Shown here in pieces: positions 10,593 through 62,987 of a stretch of 64,000 nt of DNA. The translations under genes were made by a program, and so were the position numbers. The notes under the pieces were generated by a model. It did not search any database and was not told where the DNA came from. It saw only the letters and a list, made by a program, of their open reading frames with translations. Source of the stretch: Psychrilyobacter piezotolerans (GTDB taxonomy: Bacteria; Fusobacteriota; Fusobacteriia; Fusobacteriales; Fusobacteriaceae); the NCBI RefSeq assembly GCF_003391055.1, contig NZ_QUAJ01000020.1, positions 1-64,000 on the forward strand. The letters are read 5' to 3'. Positions within the stretch are counted from its first letter, which is position 1. Each line of letters opens with the position of its first letter.

Positions 10593-12695
10593 ATGAAAAT
10601 AAGAGTACATGAATTAGCGAAAAAATATAATAAATCAAATAAAGAGTTCTTAGATACGTTACATGAATTAGGGTTAGAGGTGAGTTCACACCTTTCCGGT
10701 CTTACAGATGAGCAGGTAACTCTGGTTACAGATCATTTTGAAGGTGAAAATGCCGAGGGATCAAAAGATAAAAAGAAGAAAAAAAAGAAAGGAACTAAGG
10801 TAAAAGAAAAGAAAGAAAAAGTTGTTAAAGAGAAGAAAGAAAAGAAGAAAAAAGGTAAGAGAACCGAATTTACTATGAATAAAACAGAAGAAGTAGAAAA
10901 TGAAGTTATCGAAGAAGATGGAATGAAACTAATAAAGATCAGAGGGGAGATTACATTGGGTAACTTCGCTGAGAAATTAGGAGTAAATGCTTCTGAACTT
11001 ATCAAAAAGTTATTCTTAAAGGGTCAGATGTTGACTATCAACAGTGTTATAGATATGACATTGGCTGAAGAATTAGCTGACGATTATGATGCTATGGTAG
11101 AGCAGGAAGAAGTAGAAGAAATGGCATTTGGAGAAAAATTCAACTTAGAGTCAGAAGATAAAGAGTCTGACCTTATAGAGAGAGCTCCGATTATCACTAT
11201 CATGGGACATGTTGACCATGGAAAGACTTCATTACTGGATGCTATCAGAGAAGCTAATGTAGCAGATGGAGAAGCTGGTGGGATCACTCAAAAGATCGGT
11301 GCTTACCAAATAGTAAAAGATGGAAAGAAAATATCTTTCGTAGATACTCCAGGACATGAGGCCTTCACAGAAATGAGAGCTAGAGGAGCACAGGTTACTG
11401 ACATAGCTATATTAGTAGTAGCAGCAGATGACGGTGTAATGCCGCAAACTGTAGAAGCGATAGCCCATGCAAAATCAGCTGATGTACCTATTATAATAGC
11501 AGTAAATAAGATAGATAAAGAGGGAGCAGATCCATCTAGAGTTAAAAACGAACTTATGGAACATGGATTAGTACCGGTTGAGTGGGGTGGAGATGTAGAA
11601 TTTATCGAAATTTCTGCTAAATTCGGACAAAACTTAGAAGGAATCTTAGATACTATCTTAATCACGGCAGAGATGTTAGAATTAAAAGGTAATCCAAAGA
11701 AAAGAGCAAAAGGTGTAGTTATGGAATCTAGATTGGATCCAAAAGTAGGACCAATTGCCGACGTTTTAGTACAAGAGGGAACTCTTAAAATTGGAGATAT
11801 CATAGTAGCTGGAGAATCTTATGGTAAAGTAAGAGCATTACTTAACGATAAAGGTGAAAAAACAGAAGCTGCTTCACTATCTCAACCAGCTGAAGTTATA
11901 GGATTCAACACAGTTCCAGAAGCTGGAGATGTAATGTATGTAGTTCAAAATGAACAGCATGCTAGAAGAATCGTAGAAGAAGTTGAAAAAGACAGAAAAT
12001 TAAATGATCAAAACAAGAAAAAGCATATCTCTTTAGAAGTTTTATCCCAGCATATGGATGATATTAACTTAAAAGAATTAAACCTTATCATAAGAGCTGA
12101 CTCAAAAGGTTCTGTACAAGCCCTGAAGGAATCATTAAACAAATTATCTACATCAGAAGTAGCAGTAAACGTTATCCAAGCTACATCTGGAGCAATATCT
12201 GAAGGAGATATTAGACTGGCAGAAGCATCAGATGCAATCATCCTTGGATTTAACGTAAGACCTACTACAAAAGCCATGAGAGATGCAGATAAAGCTGGTG
12301 TAGAGATCAGAACTTCTAGTATCATCTATCAAATTGTAGAAGATATCGAGCAAGCTTTATCAGGAATGTTAGATCCTGAATATAAAGAAGTTTACTTAGG
12401 AAGAATCGAGATTAAAAAAGTATTTAAAGTATCTAAAATTGGAAATATAGCTGGTTGTTATGTTGAAGATGGAAAGATCTATGCTGATTCAAAAATCAGA
12501 ATTCTTAGAAACGGTGTAATGGTATACGATGGGGAATTAGCTTCATTAAAGAGATATCAAGATGATGCTAAAGAAGTTATCGTAGGTCAGGAATGTGGAT
12601 TAAATATCAAGAACTTTAATGATATTAAAGAGGGCGATATAGTAGAAGCATACAGAATCGACGAAATCCAAAGAACACTAAAAGATGTGAAATAA
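10593..12695 (+). CDS. infB: translation initiation factor IF-2
   Basis: 700 residues; AGGAGG seven bases before ATG. It begins with an IF2_N helix bundle ('KIRVHELAKKYNKSNKEFL'), then a lysine-rich linker (residues ~57-92), a second IF2_N module (~105-170), and the G domain with 'GHVDHGKTS' (~204-212), 'DTPGHEAF' and 'NKID'. The beta-barrel domains and the C2 fMet-tRNA-binding domain follow. It positions initiator tRNA on the 30S subunit. It lies between ylxR/L7Ae and rbfA in the conserved operon. The linker shows strong A-rich codon bias but no break. Confidence 0.97.
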   Translation: MKIRVHELAKKYNKSNKEFLDTLHELGLEVSSHLSGLTDEQVTLVTDHFEGENAEGSKDKKKKKKKGTKVKEKKEKVVKEKKEKKKKGKRTEFTMNKTEEVENEVIEEDGMKLIKIRGEITLGNFAEKLGVNASELIKKLFLKGQMLTINSVIDMTLAEELADDYDAMVEQEEVEEMAFGEKFNLESEDKESDLIERAPIITIMGHVDHGKTSLLDAIREANVADGEAGGITQKIGAYQIVKDGKKISFVDTPGHEAFTEMRARGAQVTDIAILVVAADDGVMPQTVEAIAHAKSADVPIIIAVNKIDKEGADPSRVKNELMEHGLVPVEWGGDVEFIEISAKFGQNLEGILDTILITAEMLELKGNPKKRAKGVVMESRLDPKVGPIADVLVQEGTLKIGDIIVAGESYGKVRALLNDKGEKTEAASLSQPAEVIGFNTVPEAGDVMYVVQNEQHARRIVEEVEKDRKLNDQNKKKHISLEVLSQHMDDINLKELNLIIRADSKGSVQALKESLNKLSTSEVAVNVIQATSGAISEGDIRLAEASDAIILGFNVRPTTKAMRDADKAGVEIRTSSIIYQIVEDIEQALSGMLDPEYKEVYLGRIEIKKVFKVSKIGNIAGCYVEDGKIYADSKIRILRNGVMVYDGELASLKRYQDDAKEVIVGQECGLNIKNFNDIKEGDIVEAYRIDEIQRTLKDVK

Positions 12696-43673: not shown

Positions 43674-43761
43674 ATTGATCATAATGAGTGTATTTAGGAT
43701 GGAAATTTGAGGACTAAATAGAAAATGATTTAATTAAAATTCATTTTTTAATTGATAAATA

Positions 43762-44196
43762 GGACAAAAAGTGGTATAAGTTATGTAAATAAATTTTTAA
43801 AGGAGAGGAATTATGTTTAAATTAAGATTTAATTGAGCCTGAGTAGCTAATAAACTTCTGGATGAAGTCATGATGGAACTTTTAGAATCTGAAAAAAGGA
43901 GATATTAGGTGGTGTTTACTGCTTCAATATTATAAACATATATTTCTTTTCACTCTTTAACTTCCAACCCATTTTAAAATTATTGCGGATATAAATAAAT
44001 ATATTAACGAGATATTTTGACCTTAATATACTATCTATTCCTAAAATAATTACTTTCGGAACAACCAGTTCCAACAATCATTGTAAAAAACGAAGAAAAT
44101 GAAAAACAAAATTTTTAATCACAATGCATATTAAACTATTAATTTATAGTAGTTATTTATGTCACCTTTTTTAATGCAAAAATATAATCACCCTGG
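43762..44196. repeat. duplicated block, copy A (second copy at 58698-59190)
   Basis: From 'AAAAAGTGGTATAA' to 'TTTTTTAATGCAAAAATATAA' this block matches 58698-59190 closely. It contains a 31-codon frame with two UGA codons, a 65-base stretch that is identical in both copies (about 43918-43982, CTGCTTCAATATTATAAACA…), and a tail 'CTATTAATTTATAGTAGTTA'. The second copy has an extra ~60 bases before the tail. It may be a duplicated gene relic, a noncoding RNA or a small mobile unit. Confidence 0.8.
43813..43908 (+). CDS. possible 31-residue selenopeptide with two in-frame UGA codons, copy A
   Basis: ATG with AAAGGAGAGG six bases upstream, then MFKLRFN-UGA-A-UGA-V…KLLDEVMMELLESEKRRY and TAG at 43906-43908. 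The UGA codons are at 43834-36 and 43840-42, giving an Asn-Sec-Ala-Sec motif if read. A hairpin ACTTC-TGGAT-GAAGT at 43854-43868 starts 11 bases after the second UGA, which is the right distance for a bacterial SECIS. The copy at 58748 keeps both UGA codons and the hairpin. Against it: the seven base differences between the copies inside the frame all change the amino acid, so constraint on protein sequence is not shown. It could also be a decayed gene start or a noncoding element. Confidence 0.4.
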
Positions 44197-51027: not shown

Positions 51028-51267
51028 ATGAAAGAAAGAATAGAATTTATCAACGCATGTCCATGATGCACTAAGTTTGAGGTCTTCGTGAAAGATTATG
51101 CTAAAAAAAAAGGAATAACAGCTAAAATTTATAAGGCAGGAAAAGATTTCGGTTATTTAAAAAAATACGGAGCTGTAATGAAATCAATACTTATTATCAA
51201 TGAAACCAAAAAATACCAGACACTTTCCGAAGAGATAATAAAAAAAGCAATAGATGAGGCGGTTTAA
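51028..51267 (+). CDS. saoT: thioredoxin-like selenoprotein with CPUC motif (SaoT-like)
   Basis: 79 residues if the UGA at 51064-51066 is read as selenocysteine (residue 13), giving Cys-Pro-Sec-Cys right after the first beta strand (IEFINA), exactly the redox site of a small glutaredoxin/thioredoxin fold. The frame then stays open to TAA at 51265 ('KFEVFVKDYAKKKGITAKIYKAGKDF…GAVMKSILIIN'), including the cis-Pro-region equivalent. A SECIS-like hairpin with apical loop GGTCT (51081-51085), the same loop as in E. coli fdhF, lies 15 bases after the UGA. AAAGGAG precedes the ATG. I recall this protein under the NCBI name SaoT. It probably reduces or passes a thiophilic metal species within the system. 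It is the first gene of the operon, one base before the permease. Confidence 0.85.
51081..51085 (+). promoter_or_regulatory. SECIS-like apical loop of saoT
   Basis: GGTCT loop closed by GA/TC and a TTT/GAA helix with a two-base GT bulge (51076-51092), 15 bases after the UGA. The stem is short and the bulge side differs from E. coli. Confidence 0.5.
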
Positions 51268-51268
51268 A

Positions 51269-52330
51269 ATGATAAAGTTTTTAGAAGAAATATTGAGGAG
51301 TTCATTTGAGATTTTAAATTCAGCTTCTATCTGGCTGATATTCAGCTTTTTACTGGCCGGATTTTTAAGAAATATCCTGAATCCTTTGAAATTTCAAAAG
51401 ATGCTTGGGAATACAAAACTATCTTCAATCCTTAAAAGTACATTATCTGGAATGCTCCTTCCCATATGCAGCTGTGGAGTTATCCCTCTGGGTATGAGCA
51501 TGTATTTTTCAGGAGCTTATCTGGGGCCTGTTTTAGCCTTTATGACATCAACCCCTATGATTAATCCTGTGGCAGTTTTACTTGCTTTTGGACTGCTGGG
51601 GCCTGAGATAGCCGGAATCTATGTTTTGACAGGTTTCTGTCTGCCTTTTTTAATAGGGATAATCGGGAATAAATTTGGGAAAGATGAACTTCATGCCCCC
51701 GGTATGGATGAGTTTATCCAAGCTGATTATGACGACAGTAGAAGTTTTAAGGAAAAAATTATAGACGGTTTTAACTGGGCATTCAATGATTTGGCCCTTG
51801 TTGTAAGTAAATATGTGATCTTAGGTATGGTTATGGCCGGATTTTTATTTACCGTTTTTCCCAAGGGTTATATTGAAAAATACCTGGGAGACCCCAGTGT
51901 GCTTTCTCTGGGGAGCATAACCATTTTGGCGATGATAATGTATGTGTGTGCTGTCGGTCATATTCCCTTTATTGCTGCCCTTGTTGCCAGCGGAGCTGCT
52001 CCCGGTGTAGCCGTTACATTTTTAATGGCAGGGACTGCAACAAATTTACCTGAATTACTCAGTATGTATAAACTCATGGGGAAAAGAACCGTTATAATCT
52101 ATTCCTTAACAATGGTTATGTCATCTCTGGGAGTGGGATATTTAACCAATATTTTATTGGTGGATTTTAAACCAGTCATTGACTTCAATAAAAATTTAGG
52201 TTCTATCGAAGCTGCCAATATCCTGCTCATTGAGCCGCCGGAATATATTAAATATCTGTGTTCTCTGATGATTATTTTATTGGCAGCAAGGGCTATTTTA
52301 CCTGCAATAAAGGAGAGGGTGATGGCATGA
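51269..52330 (+). CDS. saoE: ArsP/DUF318-family permease (SaoE-like)
   Basis: 353 residues from ATG 51269, one base after the saoT stop; the ATG 15 bases earlier lies inside saoT. Eight or more hydrophobic helices. 'LLPICSCGVIPLGMSMYFSGAYLGPVLAFMTSTPMINPVA' (~63-102) is the hallmark of DUF318 permeases such as ArsP, with the C67-S-C69 pair in a helix. 'GTATNLPELLSMYKLMG' repeats the second signature. ArsP exports trivalent organoarsenicals (established). In this operon it most likely exports an organometal(loid) or metal product; NCBI names this neighbourhood member SaoE. It overlaps the next gene by four bases. Confidence 0.85.
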   Translation: MIKFLEEILRSSFEILNSASIWLIFSFLLAGFLRNILNPLKFQKMLGNTKLSSILKSTLSGMLLPICSCGVIPLGMSMYFSGAYLGPVLAFMTSTPMINPVAVLLAFGLLGPEIAGIYVLTGFCLPFLIGIIGNKFGKDELHAPGMDEFIQADYDDSRSFKEKIIDGFNWAFNDLALVVSKYVILGMVMAGFLFTVFPKGYIEKYLGDPSVLSLGSITILAMIMYVCAVGHIPFIAALVASGAAPGVAVTFLMAGTATNLPELLSMYKLMGKRTVIIYSLTMVMSSLGVGYLTNILLVDFKPVIDFNKNLGSIEAANILLIEPPEYIKYLCSLMIILLAARAILPAIKERVMA

Positions 52331-52800
52331 AAAAAAAAATAAAATTTACTAAATCAAATGCCGCCTTCCTTTTTATATTTTTTATCGGATTTATTTTTTA
52401 TATGTATTCTTCAAAGGAAGTATCTCAAGAAAATTATGAAAATATAGACAAAAAAAATCCACTATTAAAAATATTTCAAAGTGAATACTCAAATAAGGTT
52501 ATTCTCATGAAAGAGGGGGACATCACAAATGACGGGATTGAAGACTTAATAGTCATCTATGATATATCTAAATCGGAAAAAGGAATGGTTGTTGTTCTGG
52601 GGGGAGAAAATAAATTAACTAATAGTGTAAAAGCCCCCATAGAAAGACAGAGTATCAGATTTAAAAATATCGATGAAAAAAATGAAATGGAATTTGTAGT
52701 TTCAGGCTATAGGGGAAGTAAACTGGGCTACGGAATATATAGAATAGAAAATAACAGAATCATAGATCTCTTTGGAGAGGGTATGGATCAATGCTGTTAA
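52327..52800 (+). CDS. saoC: membrane-anchored protein with Cys-Cys C-terminus (SaoC-like)
   Basis: 157 residues from ATG 52327, overlapping the permease stop (ATGA). A single helix at ~12-30 (AAFLFIFFIGFIFYMYSS) anchors it, leaving the rest outside the inner membrane. Residues ~60-85 'KEGDITNDGIEDLIVIYD' look like an FG-GAP or calcium-loop strand pair. The chain ends exactly in '…GEGMDQCC', so a vicinal Cys pair sits at the free C-terminus. I recall NCBI's 'Cys-Cys-COOH (seleno)protein SaoC', where some members end Cys-Sec; here it is Cys-Cys and there is no UGA. A flexible thiol pair would suit delivery of a soft metal ion (inference). Confidence 0.82.
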   Translation: MKKKIKFTKSNAAFLFIFFIGFIFYMYSSKEVSQENYENIDKKNPLLKIFQSEYSNKVILMKEGDITNDGIEDLIVIYDISKSEKGMVVVLGGENKLTNSVKAPIERQSIRFKNIDEKNEMEFVVSGYRGSKLGYGIYRIENNRIIDLFGEGMDQCC

Positions 52801-52825
52801 ATAAATAAAAAAAAGGAGAAAAAGA

Positions 52826-53878
52826 ATGAAAAAATTTATACTAGGCTTATCATTACTGGCATTAATAGGGTGTGGTGAAAAAAAGGAAGAGGATTATACT
52901 GTTAAACTGGGGTACTATAACTGTGATCATATGACTGCATCGGTTATTGCTAAAGATGCTGGGATATTTGAGGATATGGGACTTTCGGTAGACATCAGCG
53001 GAAACGGAAAGGTCCCTCAGGCAATGGCTGCCGGACAGATGGATGTAGGATATATTGGAGTTAACAATGTATTCAGATCACAGCTTAAAGGTGCACCCCT
53101 TGTAATAGGGTCAAATAACCATAAAGGGGGGTCATATTACCTGGTTGTTGCAAATGATGTAGAAAAACCTGAAGATTTAATCGGTGAAAAACTTGCCATA
53201 GGTACCCATCCAGAAAGATCAACCGGATGGACTCAAATTGCTAAAAGTTTAAACCTTCCTGTAGACGGAAAAAATTATCAGGGGATTGATATCGGTTCAT
53301 CAACTGATGCGTTGACAGCTCTTAGAATGGGAGAAATCAAAGGTTTTACAGCATGTGATCCATGGGCATCAATGGCGGAATATCAAGGCATTGGAAAGAT
53401 TATGGGAACTGAAAATAAACTGTTAAACGATAAATGGGGGGTCTGCTGTACATACACTTTGAACAAAAAATTTATCGAAGAACATAGAGATTTGGCTAAA
53501 AAAATGATCTTAGCCCATGCAAAAGCTATTGAATATATCTATGAAAATCCATTGAAGTCAGCTAAGATTTTTGCCGATAACTACAATGTTCCTTTGGAAG
53601 TTGCTGTGAGTACAATCTATAAAAAAACCGTAGGAGAGGGAAGGACTTTAACGTGGAAACTGGATCCTCAGGAAATTAAAAATGAATTGGAATGGGCACA
53701 GGAAAGCGGCTTCACTCCAAAAGAAGTTAAATATGAAAATATTGTAGATGAATCAATCTATAATGAAGCTGATGTGCCTGATTTTGATAAGTTCATAGCG
53801 GAAAAAGTCGAGAAGAATTTTCCATTGGGCATGAATTATGACTCATGGTATGCAAAAGCTCAGGAATTAGATAAATAA
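52826..53878 (+). CDS. saoX: Cys-bearing ABC substrate-binding lipoprotein (SaoX-like)
   Basis: 350 residues, AAAGGAG site. Lipobox 'LLALIGC' (Cys16). SsuA/TauA/NMT1-type fold: 'VKLGYYNCDHMTASVIAKDAGIFEDMGLSV', 'MAAGQMDVGYIGVN', 'GEKLAIGTHPERSTGW' and 'TALRMGEIKGFTACDPWAS'. Where relatives carry residues contacting sulfonates or nitriles, this one has Cys33 in YNCDH, Cys177 in ACDPW and the pair Cys207-Cys208 in WGVCC, so three cysteine positions face the expected ligand cleft. That suggests binding of a thiophilic metal compound (inference). Recalled NCBI name SaoX. It lies 25 bases after saoC and two bases before the next gene. Confidence 0.87.
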   Translation: MKKFILGLSLLALIGCGEKKEEDYTVKLGYYNCDHMTASVIAKDAGIFEDMGLSVDISGNGKVPQAMAAGQMDVGYIGVNNVFRSQLKGAPLVIGSNNHKGGSYYLVVANDVEKPEDLIGEKLAIGTHPERSTGWTQIAKSLNLPVDGKNYQGIDIGSSTDALTALRMGEIKGFTACDPWASMAEYQGIGKIMGTENKLLNDKWGVCCTYTLNKKFIEEHRDLAKKMILAHAKAIEYIYENPLKSAKIFADNYNVPLEVAVSTIYKKTVGEGRTLTWKLDPQEIKNELEWAQESGFTPKEVKYENIVDESIYNEADVPDFDKFIAEKVEKNFPLGMNYDSWYAKAQELDK

Positions 53879-53880
53879 AA

Positions 53881-54615
53881 ATGAAAAAAGTTAATATTTT
53901 TCTTATTATATTATTTGTTGCAGCCTTTATCCTGCCAAAAGAAAAAAGAATGGAAAAACCACTGAGAATTGCAAGCGGGAAGGATACAACAGGCCTTTTA
54001 GTTAACAGACTTCTCCGTGAAAATATTGAATTTCAGACAGTGGTAGGAGAATATGAATTACAGGATTGCTGAAGTTCCACAGCTCAGTGGGCACTGAGTA
54101 GTGATGTATTGGATATAGCCTTCCTATGTGATGACGCTGTAATTTCATTTAGAAAAAATACAGAATTTGAAAACCTGGGAAGTGCAATAAAAAATTCAGA
54201 TATAGTTGTAAAAAATAAAAAAAATCCCCAAATAATTGCATATGAAGGGAAAAAACAATATCAAAAAAATTTAATAAAAAAATACAGGATAAAATACCCT
54301 GTAAAGGTTAATTCTATTCCCATATTACTGGAAAGAGATGTAGTTGATGCAGCTATACTAGACGGGATTAAGGCAATTACCATAGCCGGGGATTATGAAG
54401 AAGTCCGGCAGAACTATACTACATATAATATGGTAGTCAGAAAAGCTGTCATGGGAACCAGAGAATTTAAGGAATTCATTGAAAAATATAATGAAGTGGT
54501 GGATGAATTAAATGATGAAAAATTATATGAAAATGAAGTCAAAATTTATTTGAAGGAGGGGAAATGGCCGAAATATGTCTCGACACCAAAGTTTCAAAAG
54601 ATCAAAATTTTATAA
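53881..54615 (+). CDS. saoB: selenocysteine-containing ABC substrate-binding-like protein (SaoB-like)
   Basis: 244 residues if UGA at 54070-54072 is decoded as Sec64. Upstream and downstream frames are the same and both clearly coding: 'EKPLRIASGKDTTGLLVNRLLRENI…GEYELQDC' then Sec, then 'SSTAQWALSSDVLDIAFLCDDAVISF'. The Cys63-Sec64 pair thus sits in the hinge/ligand region of a small binding-protein fold (compare 'AQWAL..DVLDIA' with the 'MAAGQMDVGY' of SaoX). N-terminal hydrophobic segment (~4-18) acts as anchor or signal. A hairpin CTCAGT-GGGC-ACTGAG at 54083-54098 begins 10 bases after the UGA and fits a bacterial SECIS. Other genes in the operon also have single UGA breaks, so a random nonsense mutation is unlikely. 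It lacks a clear ribosome site and is probably coupled to saoX. Confidence 0.83.
54083..54098 (+). promoter_or_regulatory. SECIS-like hairpin of saoB
   Basis: Six-bp stem CTCAGT/ACTGAG with GGGC loop, ten bases downstream of the UGA at 54070; a GG is placed in the apical loop as SelB prefers. Confidence 0.65.
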
Positions 54616-55367
54616 AAACTAATATGAAAAATATATGCAATAGATCAATAGCATTTATAGGCATAGTAGCTGTATGGCAGATAATGTCTCTGCATTACAA
54701 CAATGAACTGTTGCTTCCCTCGCCGATCATTACAATTAAAGAATTTTTCAATTGTATAGTAGATGTGGAAGTATTGAAAAACATGGGGATTACAATGGGT
54801 CGTGTACTGAGAGGATTCTTATTATCTCTTTTATTCGGCCTTCCTCTGGGGTTTTTAATGGGGTATTTCAGGTCGGTTGAAAAGGCTATGGGAGGAATCA
54901 TTGACGCACTCCGTCAAATTCCTGTCATGGCATGGGTTCCCCTGACTATTGTCTGGTTTGGTATCGGAGACGGACCTACTCTATTTTTAATAGCATTTTC
55001 AGGAGTATTTCCCGTAATCTTAAATACATTGGAAGGGGTAAAAGGAATTTCATCCGATTATTATAACGCTGCCCGAAGTATGGGAGCCAGCAGATTTAGT
55101 CTGTTTAAAGATGTAACTCTACCGGCTGTTATTCCGGATATACTGACCGGAGCCAGGATTTCTATCAGTACAGGCTGGATGTCGGTTATATGAGCGGAGT
55201 TCATAGCGACAAGTGCCGGGTTCGGTCACTCAATGGTAGAAGCTCAAGCTTATATGCAGACGGAAAGATTAATTGCCCTCATGATGTTGGCTGCTGTAGT
55301 GGGTTACACAATAGACAGGGGGCTTTTACAGATAAATAAGCACCTAACCAGCTGGAGGGAAATATAA
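54564..55367 (+). CDS. saoP: selenocysteine-containing ABC permease (SaoP-like)
   Basis: 267 residues with UGA at 55191-55193 decoded as Sec210. Start ATG 54564 has GGAGGGG close by and overlaps the previous gene by 52 bases; an ATG at 54624 is a shorter option. The SsuC/TauC permease family pattern is complete: 'LGFLMGYFRSVEKAMGGIIDALRQIPVMAWVPL', the EAA loop 'YYNAARSMGASRFSLFKDVTLPAVIPDILTGARIS', then 'STGWMSVI-Sec-AEFIATSAGFGH' where relatives have Ala or Val in 'WxxxVAAEx'. After the UGA the frame stays open to TAA at 55365. A hairpin GTG-CCG-GGTT-CGG-T-CAC at 55213-55229, with a bulged T, fits a SECIS. A Sec inside a transmembrane helix of the pore is highly unusual and could contact the passing metal (inference). 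Confidence 0.83.
55213..55229 (+). promoter_or_regulatory. SECIS-like hairpin of saoP
   Basis: Six base pairs GTGCCG/CGG(T)CAC with a single bulged T and apical loop GGTT, 19 bases after the UGA at 55191; bulged U and GG-containing loop are the known SECIS features. Confidence 0.7.
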
Positions 55368-56116
55368 TGGAAATAAAGAATATATCTAAAATATTTTCTT
55401 CAAAGGGGGAAGAAAATGTCGTGCTCCAAGATGTAAACCTGACCTTTAATGAGGGGGAGTTTATAACTTTATTGGGGCCGTCTGGATGCGGAAAAACAAC
55501 CTTATTGACTATGATGGCAGGATTTCAAAAGCCTAGTTCTGGTGAGATCAGGTTAGAGGATGAAATAATAACTAAACCATCACCCAAAAAGGGATTTGTA
55601 TTTCAAAATTATGCACTTTTTCCCTGGATGACGGTCAGGGAAAATATACTCTATCCCATGAAACAACAAAAATTAGCAAAAGATGAGATGGGTAAACGAT
55701 TTAAAAAATTAATAAAAATTGCCCACCTTCAGGGGAAGGAAGATCTATATCCCAAGGAATTATCGGGGGGGATGAAACAGAGGACAGCCTTTGTAAGGGC
55801 TCTGGCAGGGAACCCTAAAATTTTACTTTTAGATGAACCCTTGGGGGCAATAGATTTTCAGATGAGAAAATCTATCCAGGTACAGCTGGAAAAACTCTGG
55901 CAGGAAACTAAAATTACAACTGTAATGGTTACCCATGATGTAGAGGAGGCCCTCTATCTCAGTGACAGAGTAATAGTAATGTCTAAAAATAAAGGGGAAA
56001 TCATAAAAGACTTTAAAGTTGAGATGGAAAGACCCCGTAACAGAGAATTTGAGGAATATAAAGATTATAAAAAAGAACTTGAAAAACTGCTGGAAAGAGC
56101 ATTAAAAGGGATATAA
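55367..56116 (+). CDS. saoA: ABC transporter ATP-binding protein (SaoA-like)
   Basis: 249 residues, starting within the stop codon of the permease (TAATG). Walker A 'GPSGCGKTT' (~38-46), Q loop 'FVFQNYALFPWMTV', signature 'LSGGMKQRTAFVRAL' (~134), Walker B 'ILLLDEPLGAID' and switch His in 'VTHDVEEALYLSDRV'. It is the SsuB/TauB-type ATPase for the permease above. Its last residues are charged. Recalled NCBI name SaoA. Confidence 0.92.
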   Translation: MEIKNISKIFSSKGEENVVLQDVNLTFNEGEFITLLGPSGCGKTTLLTMMAGFQKPSSGEIRLEDEIITKPSPKKGFVFQNYALFPWMTVRENILYPMKQQKLAKDEMGKRFKKLIKIAHLQGKEDLYPKELSGGMKQRTAFVRALAGNPKILLLDEPLGAIDFQMRKSIQVQLEKLWQETKITTVMVTHDVEEALYLSDRVIVMSKNKGEIIKDFKVEMERPRNREFEEYKDYKKELEKLLERALKGI

Positions 56117-56127
56117 AAGGAGAACAG

Positions 56128-56781
56128 ATGTATACAAAAGAAGAATTTTTAGAACTGGAATTTGAAAATTATACCAGCCAGGAGCTGTATTTAAAACAAA
56201 GATATAAGGATTTAAAGAAAAAATATCAGGATGTCAGACTTTTTATTATGGAGTCTGTAATTGATTCAAAAACCTCTCTAAAAGATATAAAAAATGAATT
56301 AAAAAATAAATATCCGGATATAGATGATATTTTAATAGAGATGCAGAAAAAAGGAGTTTTTGTAGCTGATGAGGATGTTAAATTTATATATCCTGTTTCA
56401 GCACTGCCTACACCTCACAGGGTAAAAAGAAAAGATGGAAAAGAATTTTATTCCATGTGCGGAATAGATTCAATGGGAACCCACTTTACCTTCCACCAGG
56501 ATATTGAGATTAATTCTAAATGCTGTGAGACCGGAGAAAGCGTAAATTTAAAATTATCAGATGGAAAACTGGTTTCATATTCTCCCGAGGACCTGCATAT
56601 ACTTCATGTGGATTTAAACAACCACACTAACTGGGCAGGAGACTGCTGAAATATTATGAATTTCTTCCGTGGGGAGAAAGAACTGAAAAACTGGATAAAC
56701 AGGAATAACACCCAAGACGGGATATACTGCCTTCCGGTAAAAGATGCATTTAAAGTGAGTAAATTGTTGTTTGAAATTTAA
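56128..56781 (+). CDS. saoL: MerB-like selenoprotein lyase (SaoL-like)
   Basis: 217 residues with UGA at 56647-56649 read as Sec174. The frame continues through 'NIMNFFRGEKELKNWINRN…GIYCLPVKDAFKVSKLLF' to TAA 56779. N-terminal ~75 residues are a winged-helix-like helical domain as in MerB. The catalytic part has 'SMCGIDSMGTHF' (C111-x-x-D114, matching MerB Cys96/Asp99), 'SKCCETGE' (C132-C133) and 'WAGDC-Sec-NIMNFF' (matching the Cys159 region preceding FF). Thus a Cys173-Sec174 pair replaces the second catalytic Cys. MerB cuts carbon-mercury bonds and protonates the carbon (established). A hairpin TTTCTTCC-GTG-GGGAGAAA at 56661-56679 follows the UGA by 11 bases. NCBI calls the family MerB-like organometallic lyase SaoL (recalled). 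Confidence 0.86.
56661..56679 (+). promoter_or_regulatory. SECIS-like hairpin of saoL
   Basis: Eight-bp stem TTTCTTCC/GGGAGAAA (one U-G pair) with GTG apical loop, 11 bases after the UGA at 56647. Confidence 0.65.
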
Positions 56782-56806
56782 GAAAAATTTATAAAGGAGC
56801 CGGATT

Positions 56807-57814
56807 ATGACTTTGATGGAATATATAAATCAAGAAAAGAGGGGATATCTCCTGCCATTTATGGGAGCCAGTGGTCCTATTATGACAGGGAAAACTATGG
56901 AGGATATATATAGTTCTCCCCAAGAGCAGCTGATCCTGGCAGAGAAAATGAATGAGAAATTCCCCAGTGATTTTATCTATGCCTTGGATGAAGGGAATAT
57001 ATTCTGTGATGTATTGGGAGTCCCTCTCAAAAAACCAGAGTATGACTTTTCCATGGTGATGACTCATCCGGTAAAAAGTATAAAAGATCTGGAAAAATTA
57101 GAGATCCCGGATCCATATACCAATGAAAGGATGAAAATAAATTTAAAAAGTTTAAAGCTTATTTTAGAAAATATAGATAAACCGTTATTTGTATCGCTCC
57201 AGGGGCCGTTTACTCTGGCTGTACAATTAGCCGGGGCTACAGAGTTACTCAAGGCAACTATAAAGAATCCTGACTTTGTAAAAAAACTTTTGGAGTTTAC
57301 AGGGGAGGTAGTGGATAGATACGCAAGGGCCATAGTAGGAGCAGGCGTAAAGATGATCTCCATAGCGGAACCATCTACAGTTATGCTGGCACCAAAAAAA
57401 TTCCCTATGATAGTAGTAGATAATTTAAATAAAATTTTTGAAAATTTAAATTGCTGGAAATGCGTACATATATGCGGGGATACAACTAAGATATATCCAT
57501 ATATATTAAAAACGAAAATAGATGCATTTAGTTTTGACCAGATTATGGATATGGAAAAGATTATAGAAAATTTTCCTAAAGATAAAGTCGTTATAGGAAA
57601 TTTAGATCCTGTATACCTTCTCGGAAGGGGGAGTGTACAGGAGGTAGCTGATAAAACCGCAGAATTACATGAGAAGATGAAAAAATATAATAATTATCTT
57701 ATGGGATTCGGGTGTTCCTGTGCCAACACAGCTCCTATAGAAAATTTAGAGGCTGTATCTAAATGGGGAAGAGCCAATTATGAAGAAATAAGAGAGTTAT
57801 TAAAAAATACATAG
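56807..57814 (+). CDS. MtaA/CmuA-type (UroD-superfamily) methyltransferase
   Basis: 335 residues, AAAGGAGC site 8 bases before ATG. UroD-fold barrel with the zinc thiol-methyltransferase ligands: 'CWKCVHICGD' (His221, Cys223, plus extra Cys216 and Cys219) and 'GFGCSCANTAP' (Cys303 or 305). 'EPSTVMLAPKKF' and 'GNLDPVYLLGRGS' are family blocks. MtaA/MtbA and CmuA move methyl groups from a corrinoid protein to a thiol or folate acceptor (established). The two additional cysteines next to the zinc motif are unusual. It lies 25 bases after saoL, so it is probably transcribed with the Sao genes. Confidence 0.87.
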   Translation: MTLMEYINQEKRGYLLPFMGASGPIMTGKTMEDIYSSPQEQLILAEKMNEKFPSDFIYALDEGNIFCDVLGVPLKKPEYDFSMVMTHPVKSIKDLEKLEIPDPYTNERMKINLKSLKLILENIDKPLFVSLQGPFTLAVQLAGATELLKATIKNPDFVKKLLEFTGEVVDRYARAIVGAGVKMISIAEPSTVMLAPKKFPMIVVDNLNKIFENLNCWKCVHICGDTTKIYPYILKTKIDAFSFDQIMDMEKIIENFPKDKVVIGNLDPVYLLGRGSVQEVADKTAELHEKMKKYNNYLMGFGCSCANTAPIENLEAVSKWGRANYEEIRELLKNT

Positions 57815-57849
57815 ACAGGATTATAACAATATCAAAGTAGGTGATGAGA

Positions 57850-58644
57850 ATGATTGAGGTCGAAATTGTTTCGGGTTTTTTAGGAGCCGGGAAAACAACC
57901 TTTATAAATAAGAGATTGAAAGAGTTAAAGGGAAAATTTAGTGAAGAAAAAATAGTTTTGATTGAAAATGAATTTGGAGATATATCCATAGACAGTGAGT
58001 TTATAGTGGAAGGGGTGACAATAGAAGAGATATCCAGCGGATGCATCTGCTGTGTTTTAAAGGAAAACTTTAAGGAATCCCTGGAAAAGATAATAGAAAA
58101 TGATATCGACAGAATCATAATTGAACCTACAGGACTGGGGCTCCTGGGAGAAATTTTAAAGATATTGAAAAGTGAAAAAATATCGAAAAAATGCGAGATT
58201 GCCTCGGTAACTATGGTTATCGACGGGAAAAATTATTTGGAGCAGGTGGAGATATTCGGCAGTTTTTTCACCGATCAGATAGAAAATGCAAAAACCCTCT
58301 ATATAAGCAAAATAGACGATATGAATGTTGAAAGCATCTCTGAAATAGAAGGATCACTGAAGGAAATAAATTCCAGGGCAAAAACTATTTTTGAGATTAA
58401 GGATATTAAAAGTATGTCTATAACAGATTTTAATATAGATATAGAAAGGCTCAGGGATATATTGGAAGAATTGTCTTCTGAACAGCACGGTAAGATCCTC
58501 CGGGGGAAGGGTTTTTTGGAAAATTATACATTTAATATTGTAAACGGGGAATATGAGATAAGGGAAGAGAGTATGAAAAGAAACAATAAATTGATTCTCA
58601 TAGGAGATTTAGACAGGGAAAATATAATAAAATTATTTAATTGA
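57850..58644 (+). CDS. CobW/COG0523-family GTPase metallochaperone
   Basis: 264 residues from ATG 57850 with AGGTGA five bases before (GTG 57841 and ATG 57844 are also in frame). 'GFLGAGKTTFIN' P-loop (~9-20), 'ENEFGDISID' switch, the metal-binding 'SSGCICCVLKEN' (C65-x-C67-C68), 'EPTGLG' and 'SKIDD' as the NKxD-like site. The C-terminal CobW_C domain is short. Members deliver zinc, cobalt or other metals to target proteins. Beside a zinc methyltransferase and near corrinoid genes, loading of zinc or cobalt is likely (inference). It ends the operon. Confidence 0.88.
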   Translation: MIEVEIVSGFLGAGKTTFINKRLKELKGKFSEEKIVLIENEFGDISIDSEFIVEGVTIEEISSGCICCVLKENFKESLEKIIENDIDRIIIEPTGLGLLGEILKILKSEKISKKCEIASVTMVIDGKNYLEQVEIFGSFFTDQIENAKTLYISKIDDMNVESISEIEGSLKEINSRAKTIFEIKDIKSMSITDFNIDIERLRDILEELSSEQHGKILRGKGFLENYTFNIVNGEYEIREESMKRNNKLILIGDLDRENIIKLFN

Positions 58645-58652
58645 GGAGAAAA

Positions 58653-58690
58653 AAGCTGAAAACTAGGAAGAAAATCTTAGTTTTTAGTGA
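58653..58690 (+). terminator. weak hairpin after the CobW gene
   Basis: GAAAACTA and TAGTTTTTAG pair around an 11-14-base loop, with a T5 tract. It is imperfect. Confidence 0.4.
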
Positions 58691-58697
58691 CAAGCTG

Positions 58698-59190
58698 GGC
58701 AAAAAATGGTATAAATTATGTAAATAAAATTTTAAAGGAGAAGAACTATGTTTAAATTAAGATTTAATTGAGCCTGAGTAACGCATAAACTTCTGGATGA
58801 AGTCACGATGGAATTTTTAGAATCTGAAAAAAAGATATATTAGGTGGTACTTACTGCTTCAATATTATAAACATATATTTCTTTTCACTCTTTAACTTCC
58901 AACCCATTTTAAAATTATGATGGATATAAATAAATATATTAACGAGATATTTTGACCTTAATATACTATCTATTCCTAAATAATTATTTCCGGAACAACC
59001 AGTTCCAACAATCATTTTAAAAAAGCAACAAATAAACAACACAATGTTATAACCAGTTATATCCAAATTAGATTTGAATAGAAATCTTTATATTTTTTTA
59101 ATACAAAAAAAATAAAAAAACCACAATACATATGAAACTATTAATTTATGGTAGTTATTTATGTCACCTTTTTTAATGCAAAAATATAAA
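58698..59190. repeat. duplicated block, copy B (first copy at 43762-44196)
   Basis: It matches copy A from 'AAAAAATGGTATAAA' through the two-UGA frame, the identical 65-base stretch (58853-58917), and 'TTAACGAGATATTTTGACC', then has ~60 extra bases before rejoining at 'GAAACTATTAATTTATGGTAGTTA' and 'TTTTTTAATGCAAAAATATAA'. The two copies bracket the carbohydrate and Sao operons (14.5 kb apart, same orientation). Confidence 0.8.
58748..58843 (+). CDS. possible 31-residue selenopeptide with two in-frame UGA codons, copy B
   Basis: ATG after AAAGGAGAAG, then MFKLRFN-UGA-A-UGA-V-T-H-KLLDEVTMEFLESEKKIY and TAG 58841-58843. UGA at 58769-71 and 58775-77. The hairpin ACTTC-TGGAT-GAAGT (58789-58803) is the same as in copy A. 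The first 11 codons including both UGA are identical in the copies; the rest differs by six amino acids. If read, an N-U-A-U motif is a compact Se pair suited to binding soft metals (inference). The frame lies between the CobW gene and the corrinoid operon, a fitting place for a system component. Decoding is unproven. Confidence 0.42.
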
Positions 59191-59199
59191 AAAAGTGAA

Positions 59200-59790
59200 A
59201 GAAAAAACTTAGCCACCAATGAACACCAATTTTCATAGATGGAAAATATAAAAAACTAGTCACGAATTACATAAATTAACAAGAAGAGAATACTGATAAA
59301 CTCTTCCTCCTAGGTTTCTCTCAAATCAAGGAAACCGAAGATGAAGTGAGAGAAAAAGACTTAGTCACGAATTACACGAAGTAAAAAGAGAAAGTACAGA
59401 AAGAATGTCTAAATCTTAGTGAGCTTATATGTAAGGAAGTTCTACCCGCAAGGAGCATCCCCAAAATATCTATAGTTTATTTCATAAGCTGAGAATTTTG
59501 AGATAAAGGCTTCGCCTTTAATACGAGTTACTTTAGATATCGCGATTATTTTATTTTCTCTAATAACATTAGAAAAAAATAAAAATGCGAGCAAGAAAAA
59601 GTAACCAAAAAGTGCCAAACTTTGAAAATGTTCATGAGTAGGATCTTAATATACGAGCTTTGAAAGCTACAGTCCTCGTTTCACTGCGGGACTTATTCTG
59701 TTGAACGCTCTAGTTAATATGAAAGTACAAAGTATAATCACTTTCAAAGTTGAAAAAGTCAGATTTTAGTCTGCGTCAAAAAAATAAAAA
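59200..59790. repeat. noncoding region with several dispersed repeats
   Basis: No gene seen. 'CACGAATTACA' occurs at 59263 and 59355; 'GGTTTCTCTCAAATCAAGGAAACC' hairpin at 59311-59334; 'AAGGCTTCGCCTTT' perfect hairpin at 59505-59518; 'GAGCAAGAAAAAGTAACCAAAAAGTGCC' at 59590, a motif seen in many bacterial intergenic repeats; TCTGCGTCAAAAAAA at 59770. The following corrinoid gene starts with GGGGAAAAAG before ATG. Confidence 0.6.
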
Positions 59791-59820
59791 AAATAAAAAT
59801 AATAAATAAAGGGGAAAAAG

Positions 59821-60468
59821 ATGACTAAAAAAGAATTATTCGAAGAGATTAAAAACAATTTAATAGAGATGGAAGAAGATGTTGTAGAAGAACTCTGTAA
59901 AAAATCTCTGGAAATGGATATACCGGCAAAGGAAACTATTCAGGAAGGTTTGATTGCAGGAATGGAAGTAGTAGGCCAGCTCTATGAAGAGGAAGAATAT
60001 TTTCTGCCAGAGGTGCTGATCTGTTCAGATGCCATGAATATAGGAATAGATGTATTGAAACCCCATCTGGAAGGGGACGTATCCAGCGATAAAATAAGAG
60101 CAGTAATAGGTGTAGTAGAAGGAGATACCCATGATATCGGAAAGAATCTGGTTAAAATCATGCTGGAAGCCGGTGGGATAGAAGTACATGACCTGGGAAG
60201 AGATGTTGCCTTGGATGAATTTATCCATAAAGCCAAAGAAATAGAAGCTCATTTTATTATTATGTCTACGTTAATGACAACTACCATGGAAGGGATGAAA
60301 GTAGTTATTGAAAAATTAAAGGCTGAAGGTATGAGAGATTCAGTAAAGGTTGCCATAGGAGGCGGGCCTATCTCCCAAAGGTTTGCAACTGAGATAGGGG
60401 CAGATCTGTATACCAAGGATGCTAATGAAGCCGTGAGAAAAATAAAAGAAATCCATGAGGCGGCATAA
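59821..60468 (+). CDS. corrinoid (B12-binding) methyltransferase shuttle protein
   Basis: 215 residues. N-terminal four-helix cap (~1-85, 'IPAKETIQEGLIAGMEVVGQLYEEEEYFLPEVL'), then a Rossmann-like cobalamin domain with 'GDTHDIGKNLV' (D102-x-H104-x-x-G107; His104 is the lower cobalt ligand), 'STLMTTTMEGM' and 'VAIGGGPIS'. It is of the MtaC/MtbC/MttC type that carries a methyl on cobalt between two methyltransferases. It overlaps by one base with the next gene. The first methyltransferase component (MtaB/MttB type) is not in the window; a different methyl donor protein or the Sao lyase may serve (inference). Confidence 0.93.
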   Translation: MTKKELFEEIKNNLIEMEEDVVEELCKKSLEMDIPAKETIQEGLIAGMEVVGQLYEEEEYFLPEVLICSDAMNIGIDVLKPHLEGDVSSDKIRAVIGVVEGDTHDIGKNLVKIMLEAGGIEVHDLGRDVALDEFIHKAKEIEAHFIIMSTLMTTTMEGMKVVIEKLKAEGMRDSVKVAIGGGPISQRFATEIGADLYTKDANEAVRKIKEIHEAA

Positions 60469-61490
60469 TGGAGATAAAAGGTAGTATATTAGGGGAAAAA
60501 TTGACTGAAAAACAAAGACTCCTAGATGTCTTAAATGGAAAGGATACAGACAGGCCGCCTGTTATCTGCCCAGGGGGGATGATGAATGCAGCGGTGACAG
60601 AAGTTGTAGAAGGGATGAAAAAAAATCATAACTGTGATATAGATGCCATGGTAGAAGCTGCCATAAAAGTGCATGAAATAACAGGTTTTGAAAATTATGG
60701 AGTGCCTTTTTGCATGACAATAGAGAGTGAACCCTTTCATGTGGAAGTGGATCTGGGGAGTAAATTAGTAGAGCCGAGAATAACTAAATACAATGAAGAT
60801 ATCTTAAATCATTTAGATGAAATAAAATTAGAACATTCAAAAAGAGCCATAACCGTATTAGAAGCAATATCCAGGTTAAAAAATAATGAGATACCGGTAA
60901 TCGGGAATATAACAGGTCCCATGAGTGTGGTCACATCTGTTATTGAACCGACGGATTATTATAAGATGATGAGAAAAGATAAGGTTAAGGCCATGAAATT
61001 TTTAGATATCGTCACAGATTATTTGATCAGATTTTCCATGGAGATGATAGAAAATGGTGCCGATCTTATAGCCATGTCCGATCCCAGTGCCACAGGGGAG
61101 ATCTTGGGGAAGAAGAACTTTGAAGAATTTATGATCCCCATGTATAAAAAGATCTCGGAAGCAGTCCATGAAAAAGGGGTGAAAATAATTATCCATATAT
61201 GCGGCAAGAGTCAGAGTATTTTGGAAAGCCTGAATGACTCAGGGGCAGATTCCCTCAGTTTTGATTCGGCAGTGGGAATAAGGCAGGCTAAAGAAGTACT
61301 CAGGGCTCCCATCATGGGAAATGTCAGTACCCAGCTTTTGGACCAGGGAATGAAAGAAAAGGTAAAATTATGTACAGAAATAGTGATGAAAAACGGGACC
61401 AGTATTGTATCTCCTGCCTGCGGACTGGCCATGAGTACACCTATTGAGAATTTAAAGGCTATGACAGATACAGTAAAGAATAAAGGGTGA
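60468..61490 (+). CDS. MtaA/UroD-superfamily corrinoid methyltransferase
   Basis: 340 residues, ATG shares its A with the previous stop. Zinc ligands 'IIHICGK' (His243, Cys245) and 'SPACGLA' (Cys318) are in the right places for MtaA/MtbA-type enzymes. 'DPSATGEILGKKNFEEFMIPMYKKI' and 'IMGNVSTQLLDQG' are family blocks. It likely takes or gives the methyl group of the corrinoid protein encoded just before. It is divergent from the one at 56807, so the window has at least two such enzymes with possibly different acceptors. Gap to the next gene is six bases. Confidence 0.9.
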   Translation: MEIKGSILGEKLTEKQRLLDVLNGKDTDRPPVICPGGMMNAAVTEVVEGMKKNHNCDIDAMVEAAIKVHEITGFENYGVPFCMTIESEPFHVEVDLGSKLVEPRITKYNEDILNHLDEIKLEHSKRAITVLEAISRLKNNEIPVIGNITGPMSVVTSVIEPTDYYKMMRKDKVKAMKFLDIVTDYLIRFSMEMIENGADLIAMSDPSATGEILGKKNFEEFMIPMYKKISEAVHEKGVKIIIHICGKSQSILESLNDSGADSLSFDSAVGIRQAKEVLRAPIMGNVSTQLLDQGMKEKVKLCTEIVMKNGTSIVSPACGLAMSTPIENLKAMTDTVKNKG

Positions 61491-61496
61491 GTATGA

Positions 61497-62987
61497 GTGA
61501 AAGGGAATTATAATGAAGAAAAACCTAGGTTAGTAACAGTCAGATATAAAAATAAAGAACGGATGGTAAAAAAAGGAACTATATTAAGCGATGCCATAAG
61601 ACTTATAAAGGAAAAAATAGAAACACCCTGCAACTGTATGGGGATCTGTAAAAAATGCCAGATAAAGGTAAGGGGAGATCTTTCTCCCAGAGAAGAAATA
61701 GAAGAAAATCTACCAAAAGAAGTTCGGTTAGCCTGCATAACTGCAGCATTGGGAGATGTGGAAATTTTTGAACTTGCAGACTCGGAACTAAAAATACATG
61801 AAGAAGAGGTAAGTTTAAATATAGAAACAGAAGAAAAGGGAAGAGTCCTTGCCATAGATGTAGGAACAACAGGTGTTTCGGCCAGGTTGATCGATTTAGG
61901 TGAAAAAAGAATAACGGGAAATTATTCGGGGTTAAATTATCAGAGTGAATACGGGGCAGACGTACTGTCCAGGATCACATACTGCATCCAGAATGATGTT
62001 TTGGACCTGCAAGATGCTATTTTAACTCAAATAAAGGATATAGTAAAAAAAGTCGGGGCTGTGGACAGGATAGCCATTGCAGGAAATACCACCATGCAGC
62101 ATCTTATCTATGGGGAAAACCCCAAGTCTCTTGCGATCTCGCCCTATGAACCTGTATTTTTAGGGGAAAAATCATTTATGATAGGGGATATAGAAACAAC
62201 CCTGCTTCCAAATGCTTCCAGCTATGTAGGAGCTGATATAGTTTCCGGTGTAGCAGCAGTAAATTTGGAGGAGAAGAATAATACCCTGTTTATAGATATA
62301 GGGACAAACGGGGAGATGGTTTTATCTGTTGACGGAAAGTTATACGGGACTTCTACTGCTGCCGGTCCTGCATTTGAAGGTATGAATATAGAGTGCGGGA
62401 TGAGAGCAGGAAATGGTGCTGTTGAGGGTTTTGAGATAGTTGAGACAGGAAATCAGTTTAAGATACAAACAATAGGCGGGACTCCTACAGGAATCTGCGG
62501 AAGCGGACTGATGGATATCATGTCTGAATTTGTAAAACATAAAATTGTTTTAAAAAGCGGAAAATTTAATCCCCGGATGAAACCTGAATTCAAAGAAAGG
62601 TTAAGGGATAAAAAGTTTTATATAAGTGAAAATATTTATTTGAGCCAGGGGGATATCAGGCAGATCCAATTAGCCAAGGGAGCTATTGCAGCCGGGGTAA
62701 AACTCCTGCTGGGAAAAGTAGAAAAGGATATATTCCATATGGAGGAGGTAATAATAGCCGGATCATTCGGGTATCATCTTAATCCCGAGAGTATCTTAAA
62801 TATAGGACTTATCTCTGATTTTGAAGGGAAAATAAGTTTTGCAGGGAACACTTCACTGAACGGCTGTATCGGATACTTAGTCAATAAAGAGATGAAAGAA
62901 AAAATAAGAACTACAAAGATCGATGTGATGGAATTATCTAAGAGTGCAGAATTTCAAGAAGTTTTTATAAAAGAACTGGCGTTTTAA
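61497..62987 (+). CDS. RACo-type ATP-dependent reductive activator of corrinoid proteins
   Basis: 496 residues, GTG start with AGGGTGAG upstream. N-terminal plant-type 2Fe-2S ferredoxin domain with C45-x5-C51-x2-C54 and C80 ('TPCNCMGICKKCQIKV', 'RLACITA'), a linker to ~105, and an ASKHA-type domain (DUF4445) with 'GRVLAIDVGTTGVSARLID' and 'TLFIDIGTNGEMVL' phosphate loops, 'GAAFEGMNIECGMRA'-like and 'GICGSGLMDIM'. RACo/RamA-like proteins use ATP and a ferredoxin to return inactive Co(II) to Co(I) (established). Its presence shows the corrinoid protein is used in real methyl transfer. Confidence 0.92.
   Translation: MKGNYNEEKPRLVTVRYKNKERMVKKGTILSDAIRLIKEKIETPCNCMGICKKCQIKVRGDLSPREEIEENLPKEVRLACITAALGDVEIFELADSELKIHEEEVSLNIETEEKGRVLAIDVGTTGVSARLIDLGEKRITGNYSGLNYQSEYGADVLSRITYCIQNDVLDLQDAILTQIKDIVKKVGAVDRIAIAGNTTMQHLIYGENPKSLAISPYEPVFLGEKSFMIGDIETTLLPNASSYVGADIVSGVAAVNLEEKNNTLFIDIGTNGEMVLSVDGKLYGTSTAAGPAFEGMNIECGMRAGNGAVEGFEIVETGNQFKIQTIGGTPTGICGSGLMDIMSEFVKHKIVLKSGKFNPRMKPEFKERLRDKKFYISENIYLSQGDIRQIQLAKGAIAAGVKLLLGKVEKDIFHMEEVIIAGSFGYHLNPESILNIGLISDFEGKISFAGNTSLNGCIGYLVNKEMKEKIRTTKIDVMELSKSAEFQEVFIKELAF

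Follow-up and report, generated by a model that had tools for sequence, protein, structure and literature searches.

A complete selenocysteine-assisted organometallic (SAO) operon in Psychrilyobacter piezotolerans and a tandem-UGA repeat element of its genus

The lyase MerB binds mercury and protonates the carbon through Cys96, Asp99 and Cys159. A selenium-dependent gene set that includes a MerB-like protein, the selenocysteine-assisted organometallic (SAO) system, was reportedly described by Haft and Gwadz in 2023 (J Bacteriol) and is represented in NCBIfam by the models NF040727-NF040736. We analysed a 64,000-nucleotide stretch of the Psychrilyobacter piezotolerans genome (contig NZ_QUAJ01000020.1, positions 1 to 64,000; hereafter, the window), in which, with UGA read as selenocysteine (Sec), positions 51028-56781 comprise a complete SAO operon of eight head-to-tail genes in the order T-E-C-X-B-P-A-L (Table 1). 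All eight products score above the curated cut-offs of the respective NCBIfam families, which bears out the Sao names given in an earlier reading of this DNA (hereafter, the original prediction); its suspicion that the core had already been named was right as well, the system having been published in 2023 and included in NCBIfam. The operon is a further member of a known system, in a fusobacterial genus, and not a new kind of locus.

The likeness to the SAO system as represented in NCBIfam extends to the eight families, the clostridial gene order and the Sec positions, whereas the differences are the placement of the operon in Fusobacteriota, within a corrinoid methyltransferase cluster, and a genome without SaoD. 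Sec forms of SaoX and SaoC exist elsewhere (review PMC13188914), whereas both proteins use Cys here. The C-terminal Cys-Cys of SaoC is invariant across 9 loci; its predicted structure (predicted local distance difference test score, pLDDT, 84.5) has no significant match in PDB, and a fold search gave only weak beta-propeller-like matches. SaoB has an SsuA/TauA-type fold (best E 8e-10), and the Sec codon of saoP lies shortly downstream of the EAA-type cytoplasmic loop. SAO is sporadic, with 4 of 98 Fusobacteriota genomes and 4 of 391 genomes of the Metaclostridioides class carrying it, as would be expected of a laterally moved accessory trait.

The reading of the four UGA codons as Sec is carried by comparison among loci. 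As originally predicted, saoT, saoB, saoP and saoL each contain one in-frame UGA that is flanked on either side by coding sequence specific to the family, and in three of these genes the UGA adjoins a Cys codon (CPUC in saoT, DCU in saoB and in saoL). The comparison set comprised ten further loci. Seven of them (L021, L022, L023, L046, L047, L049 and L068) have the full set of eight genes, with UGAs; one, from Peptococcaceae UBA5356 (L048), has the full set but with Cys in place of every Sec; and two are partial: L069 has saoL alone, and L070 has saoX, saoP and saoL near a contig end. In every locus, the UGA position of SaoB, SaoP and SaoL is occupied by Sec or Cys exclusively, and the SaoT motif is CxUC, UPSC or CPCC. 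Because such exchange between Sec and Cys in homologues fits the pattern expected of Sec, we interpret the UGAs as Sec codons. The genome encodes selA, selB and yedF side by side, along with a tRNA-Sec that scores 65.8 bits against an Rfam cut-off of 47. Neither unrelated sense codons nor frame decay was seen at the UGA positions, and the Sec machinery is in place. The Cys-only locus has Cys at all four sites although its genome has SelB; its gene order also differs, with saoL ahead of saoB. In the UPSC form of SaoT (L046, L049 and L068), Sec opens the motif instead of standing third.

The SECIS-like (selenocysteine insertion sequence) hairpins of the original prediction fared less evenly. For each of the four genes, a hairpin can be drawn whose apical loop lies 16-25 nucleotides past the UGA, which fits the spacing of bacterial SECIS elements; however, measured against dinucleotide shuffles, the folding energies of saoT and saoP show no advantage (z about 0), and those of saoB and saoL show a slight one (z about -1 in the window, to -2.9 in homologues). 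Because these energies are weakly or not at all distinguishable from those of shuffled sequences, the hairpins alone prove little. Rfam models gave no match at the gathering score in the window; for the SAO operon and copy a of the repeat element discussed below, there was none even with E as high as 1.

SaoL is the component most directly comparable to a characterised enzyme. A profile of 11 SaoLs matches MerB structures (5c17, E 9e-22; 1s6l, E 2e-9), and alignment to these structures equates C111, D114, C132 and U174 of SaoL with C96, D99, C117 and C159 of MerB. All four SaoL positions are invariant among the 11 proteins except for the Sec/Cys swap at 174. SaoL thus retains the MerB positions and shares the PF03243 family, whereas it differs in having Sec for Cys159, an extra Cys before it and Asn for MerB Cys160, at about 27% identity. 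Against the two NCBIfam equivalog models for MerB, SaoL scores 52 bits (cut-off 200) and 55 bits (cut-off 193), below both. By these alignments and scores, SaoL is a relative of MerB with a predicted Sec at the catalytic Cys159 position, and not MerB itself, in support of the MerB-like lyase originally proposed. A solo saoL with a UGA (L069:9046-9672) has no transporter genes with it and is flanked by Mo-hydroxylase and double-cubane reductase/activase genes.

These features are compatible with a model in which the complete operon acts as an import-cleave-export system for a soft organometal(loid), a reading to which we assign a probability of roughly 0.55. Under this model, SaoX, SaoB with its Cys-Sec pair and SaoC with its C-terminal Cys-Cys would capture the compound outside the membrane, and SaoP and SaoA, of the SsuBC/TauBC importer type, would carry it inward past the Sec in the permease. 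Because SaoX and SaoB are SsuA/TauA-type binding proteins, and SaoP and SaoA are the matching permease and ATPase, the transporter should import. SaoT might then pass the compound on or keep Sec and Cys residues reduced, and SaoL would cut the carbon-metal bond by protonolysis as in MerB, with Sec acting as Cys159 beside the equivalents of Cys96 and Asp99. The freed metal(loid) could exit via the ArsP-type permease SaoE. The scheme is plausible given the importer type of SaoX, SaoB, SaoP and SaoA, the kinship of SaoL with MerB and the ArsP_1 family membership of SaoE. As a whole, it would resemble mer import combined with MerB, with export replacing reduction by MerA: the two systems share the logic of binding protein, membrane passage and cytoplasmic lyase, whereas SAO has an ATP-binding cassette (ABC) importer in place of MerT/MerP, an ArsP-type permease and no MerA reductase. 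The most likely substrate would be an organomercurial; left in place, such a compound would bind the selenols of a selenium-dependent anaerobe and poison it. To our knowledge, Sec as the metal-gripping, bond-breaking residue against organometals has been shown for no enzyme so far; if SAO works as its genes suggest, anaerobes use Sec itself to grip the metal and break the bond. The presence of Sec at the position of MerB Cys159, together with the existence of an all-Cys sister system, offers a direct and cheap test of the mechanism.

Several observations weigh against this model. We found no demonstrated organometal metabolism or biochemistry for any SAO member in the literature, and the surroundings of the operon showed no mer genes, MerA and MerR included. 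The accessory, non-defining family SaoD (NF040732, DsrE-like) has no match in this genome; it is present in none of the Fusobacteriota SAO genomes tested and in 5 of 7 clostridial ones. SaoE scores 178 bits against the SO_0444 Cu/Zn exporter model NF033936, below the cut-off of 300, and could carry something else. Finally, the neighbourhoods in several genomes, which include a corrinoid cluster of the methyl-selenium type, double-cubane reductase, rhodaneses and, next to a solo SaoL, Mo-hydroxylase genes, suggest general selenium metabolism rather than mercury specifically.

Those neighbours lend some substance to an alternative that we consider unlikely, namely, that SAO is a selenium salvage system which imports an organoselenium compound or a metal selenide, with the Sec residues and a double-cubane reductase, together with the corrinoid cluster, freeing selenium for Sec synthesis. 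The cluster adjoining the operon encodes a corrinoid protein, a RACo-type activase and UroD-type methyltransferases with a His-Cys-Cys zinc site, a gene content that resembles that of type I mlp clusters; these have been tied to methyl-selenium metabolism, and Sao genes have already been shown near them (preprint PMC10418091). The likeness, which includes the nearby double-cubane reductase, concerns gene content, and the neighbouring cluster is a unit separate from SAO: in this genus it occurs without SAO, and in other genera SAO occurs without an adjoining cluster.

The double-cubane-cluster reductase (NF040772) is a recurrent partner of SAO. Of the 9 loci outside the genus, 6 encode it within 2 kb of SAO or SaoL, and the chance of such proximity (taken as within 10 kb, with 1-3 full copies per genome) is about 7e-11; two genomes (G050 and G362) have the gene inside the SAO operon, and a third (G372) has it next to a solo SaoL. 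In these loci, the reductase may supply strong reducing power. On the contig analysed here, two copies, at 66.9 and 71.2 kb, follow the corrinoid cluster, and the solo SaoL of L069, between Mo-hydroxylase and double-cubane reductase/activase genes, also favours salvage. Because both copies are also present in a genome of the genus without SAO, they cannot be credited to SAO there. Against salvage, MerB-type protonolysis needs an electrophilic metal, and we know of no case of C-Se cleavage by such an enzyme. Just past the window end, the two reductase genes (L044:6843-8006 and 11119-12276) are accompanied by an activase and several rhodaneses by the corrinoid cluster.

Rather improbable is a version of the import-cleave-export scheme in which SAO serves to detoxify arsenicals, either methylated or aromatic (or antimony compounds), instead of mercury, SaoL cleaving C-As bonds and SaoE exporting these compounds or the inorganic product. 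The characterised members of ArsP_1, the family of SaoE, export trivalent organoarsenicals; however, C-As cleavage is known from ArsI, an unrelated enzyme that requires oxygen; MerB acts on mercury; and reading of the near flanks by eye, rather than by a scan, revealed no ars genes.

The original prediction treated the interval up to 58644 as one operon, whereas the SAO operon stops at 56781. We regard it as quite doubtful that the whole interval is a single functional operon, in which the UroD-like enzyme and the CobW-type GTPase would take the methyl group or deliver the metal released by SaoL. The genes are on the same strand, with 25 nucleotides between saoL and the UroD gene, and are likely co-transcribed in this genome (G000) and in G059. 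However, in an SAO-less congener (G055), the UroD-like gene directly follows GH123 and is itself followed by CobW, a tandem-UGA element and the corrinoid genes; in G060, GH123 is followed without interruption, and without SAO, by the UroD gene and the corrinoid gene; and in Propionigenium maris, the UroD and CobW genes head the corrinoid cluster on one contig (C32), with CobW adjoining the corrinoid gene, and SAO is on another (C2). Nor do the UroD and CobW genes lie beside any other SAO locus. Because SAO-less relatives keep the corrinoid cluster unbroken and P. maris has the two on separate contigs, the genes at 56807-58644 are best assigned to the neighbouring cluster, outside SAO, and the SAO block appears to have been inserted (or lost) between GH123 and the UroD gene. 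An AT-rich gap of 1.2 kb (58645-59820) parts the CobW and corrinoid genes, which are contiguous in P. maris. The last alternative, that the four UGAs are true stops or sequencing errors in decayed genes, has practically no probability, being refuted by the Sec/Cys exchange, by the recurrence of UGA at these positions across several genera in independent assemblies, by the Cys at the matching sites elsewhere and by the presence of the Sec machinery; nothing was found in its favour.

Table 1. Features of the SAO operon, the neighbouring corrinoid cluster and the tandem-UGA element (window positions unless a contig is named)
Feature	Position	Strand	Description
Element copy b	43746..44187	+	UGA-GCC-UGA ORF at 43813-43908; upstream of the ABC-GNAT-GH123-SAO run
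saoT	51028..51267	+	Thioredoxin-like selenoprotein, CPUC; Sec codon 51064-51066; NF040730, 105 bits (cut-off 65)
saoE	51269..52330	+	ArsP_1-family permease (predicted efflux); NF040736, 526 bits (cut-off 325); PF03773
saoC	52327..52800	+	Membrane-anchored beta-protein, C-terminus Cys-Cys-COOH; NF040734, 162 bits (cut-off 80)
saoX	52826..53878	+	SsuA-like substrate-binding lipoprotein; NF040735, 496 bits (cut-off 300)
saoB	53881..54615	+	Second substrate-binding protein, DCU; Sec codon 54070-54072; NF040727, 187 bits (cut-off 140)
saoP	54564..55367	+	ABC permease; Sec codon 55191-55193, WMSVIUAEF; NF040733, 393 bits (cut-off 295)
saoA	55367..56116	+	ABC ATPase; NF040729, 398 bits (cut-off 360)
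saoL	56128..56781	+	MerB-like lyase; Sec174 codon 56647-56649, DCU; NF040728, 174.9 bits (cut-off 140); PF03243, E 9e-26
UroD/MtaA-like methyltransferase	56807..57814	+	Not SAO; corrinoid cluster; PF01208; His-x-Cys...Cys motif
CobW-type GTPase	57850..58644	+	Not SAO; corrinoid cluster; PF02492
Element copy a	58681..59189	+	Promoter-like site, ORF and conserved 3' part; between CobW and corrinoid genes
Copy a ORF	58748..58843	+	31 codons, MFKLRFNUAUVTHKLLDEVTMEFLESEKKIY; UGA-GCC-UGA
Copy a SECIS-like hairpin	58789..58803	+	ACUUC-UGGAU-GAAGU; loop 22 and 16 nucleotides past the two UGAs
Corrinoid protein, MtaA-like methyltransferase, RACo-type activase	59821..62987	+	Neighbouring cluster, not SAO
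Element copy c ORF	G000:C28:27194-27277 (L034)		Third copy in the genome

In addition to the operon, we detected a repeat element with a short open reading frame (ORF) containing two UGA codons in tandem, which is the part of this locus that may be new. The ORF of copy a, with a ribosome-binding site and an ATG, starts about 100 nucleotides beyond the interval of the original prediction. Eleven copies of the element, which measures roughly 0.5 kb, are present in four genomes of the genus: G000, G055 and G059 have three each, and G057 has two. Their sites are conserved, with copy a before the corrinoid genes, copy b before the ABC-GNAT-GH123-(SAO) run, and copy c ahead of the genes for a VTT-domain protein and for a rhodanese with UGA as the codon of its catalytic Cys. 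In the genome with two copies, neither the corrinoid cluster nor copy a is present. Most copies have a promoter-like site, TTGANA-17-TATAAA, and all have about 220 nucleotides of conserved 3' sequence. Both UGAs and the hairpin ACUUC-UGGAU-GAAGU are kept in all 11, and several SaoL hairpins share the core of this hairpin, CUUC-UGKAY-GAAG; the pattern of a UGA followed after 10-24 nucleotides by this core occurs in the 3.36-Mb genome in these three copies only, with none in the reversed control.

It is possible, and we suggest it tentatively, that the element is a selenium-responsive leader that sets the expression of downstream selenium-linked genes via Sec-tRNA-dependent readthrough, or else that it encodes a 31-residue peptide with two Sec residues. 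As a leader, the promoter would drive a short ORF with tandem Sec codons served by one SECIS, and readthrough would report the supply of Sec-tRNA and so set the expression of the SAO run, the corrinoid cluster and the Sec-rhodanese operon. Among the possibilities, a selenium-sensing leader would best fit UGAs that are conserved amid loosely kept amino acids. Variable sites in the 31-codon ORF number 7, 10 and 7 at codon positions 1, 2 and 3, without a silent excess, which speaks against a protein. Alternatively, the element may be a non-autonomous repeat with a fortuitous ORF; copy a looks inserted because the corrinoid genes of G060 and P. maris are contiguous, with no element between them. 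For the 3' part, the covariation term of RNAalifold is 0, and no structured RNA emerged. An RNA model found no tandem-UGA ORF outside the genus among 98 Fusobacteriota, a protein search found none that was convincing in other SAO genomes, and none was found in viral contigs or phage records. We found neither a published description of the element nor a precedent for control by Sec supply through a leader ORF; if it is a leader, the element would represent gene control by selenocysteine supply.

Two further UGA candidates were rejected. The UGA-GTG-UGA after the MtaA-like gene (61488) represents a stop codon with the start of the next gene behind it, its second UGA being TGG in G059, and a further UGA in the 3' part of the element (DINKYINEIFUP) is CGA in G057. 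An unfiltered scan for UGA conservation, which was swamped by wrong-frame conservation, served only to spot the rhodanese lipoprotein gene downstream of copy c (L039:12489-13433, contig C28), in which an in-frame UGA takes the place of the catalytic Cys codon (LYUTMGIRSG); three congeners share this UGA.

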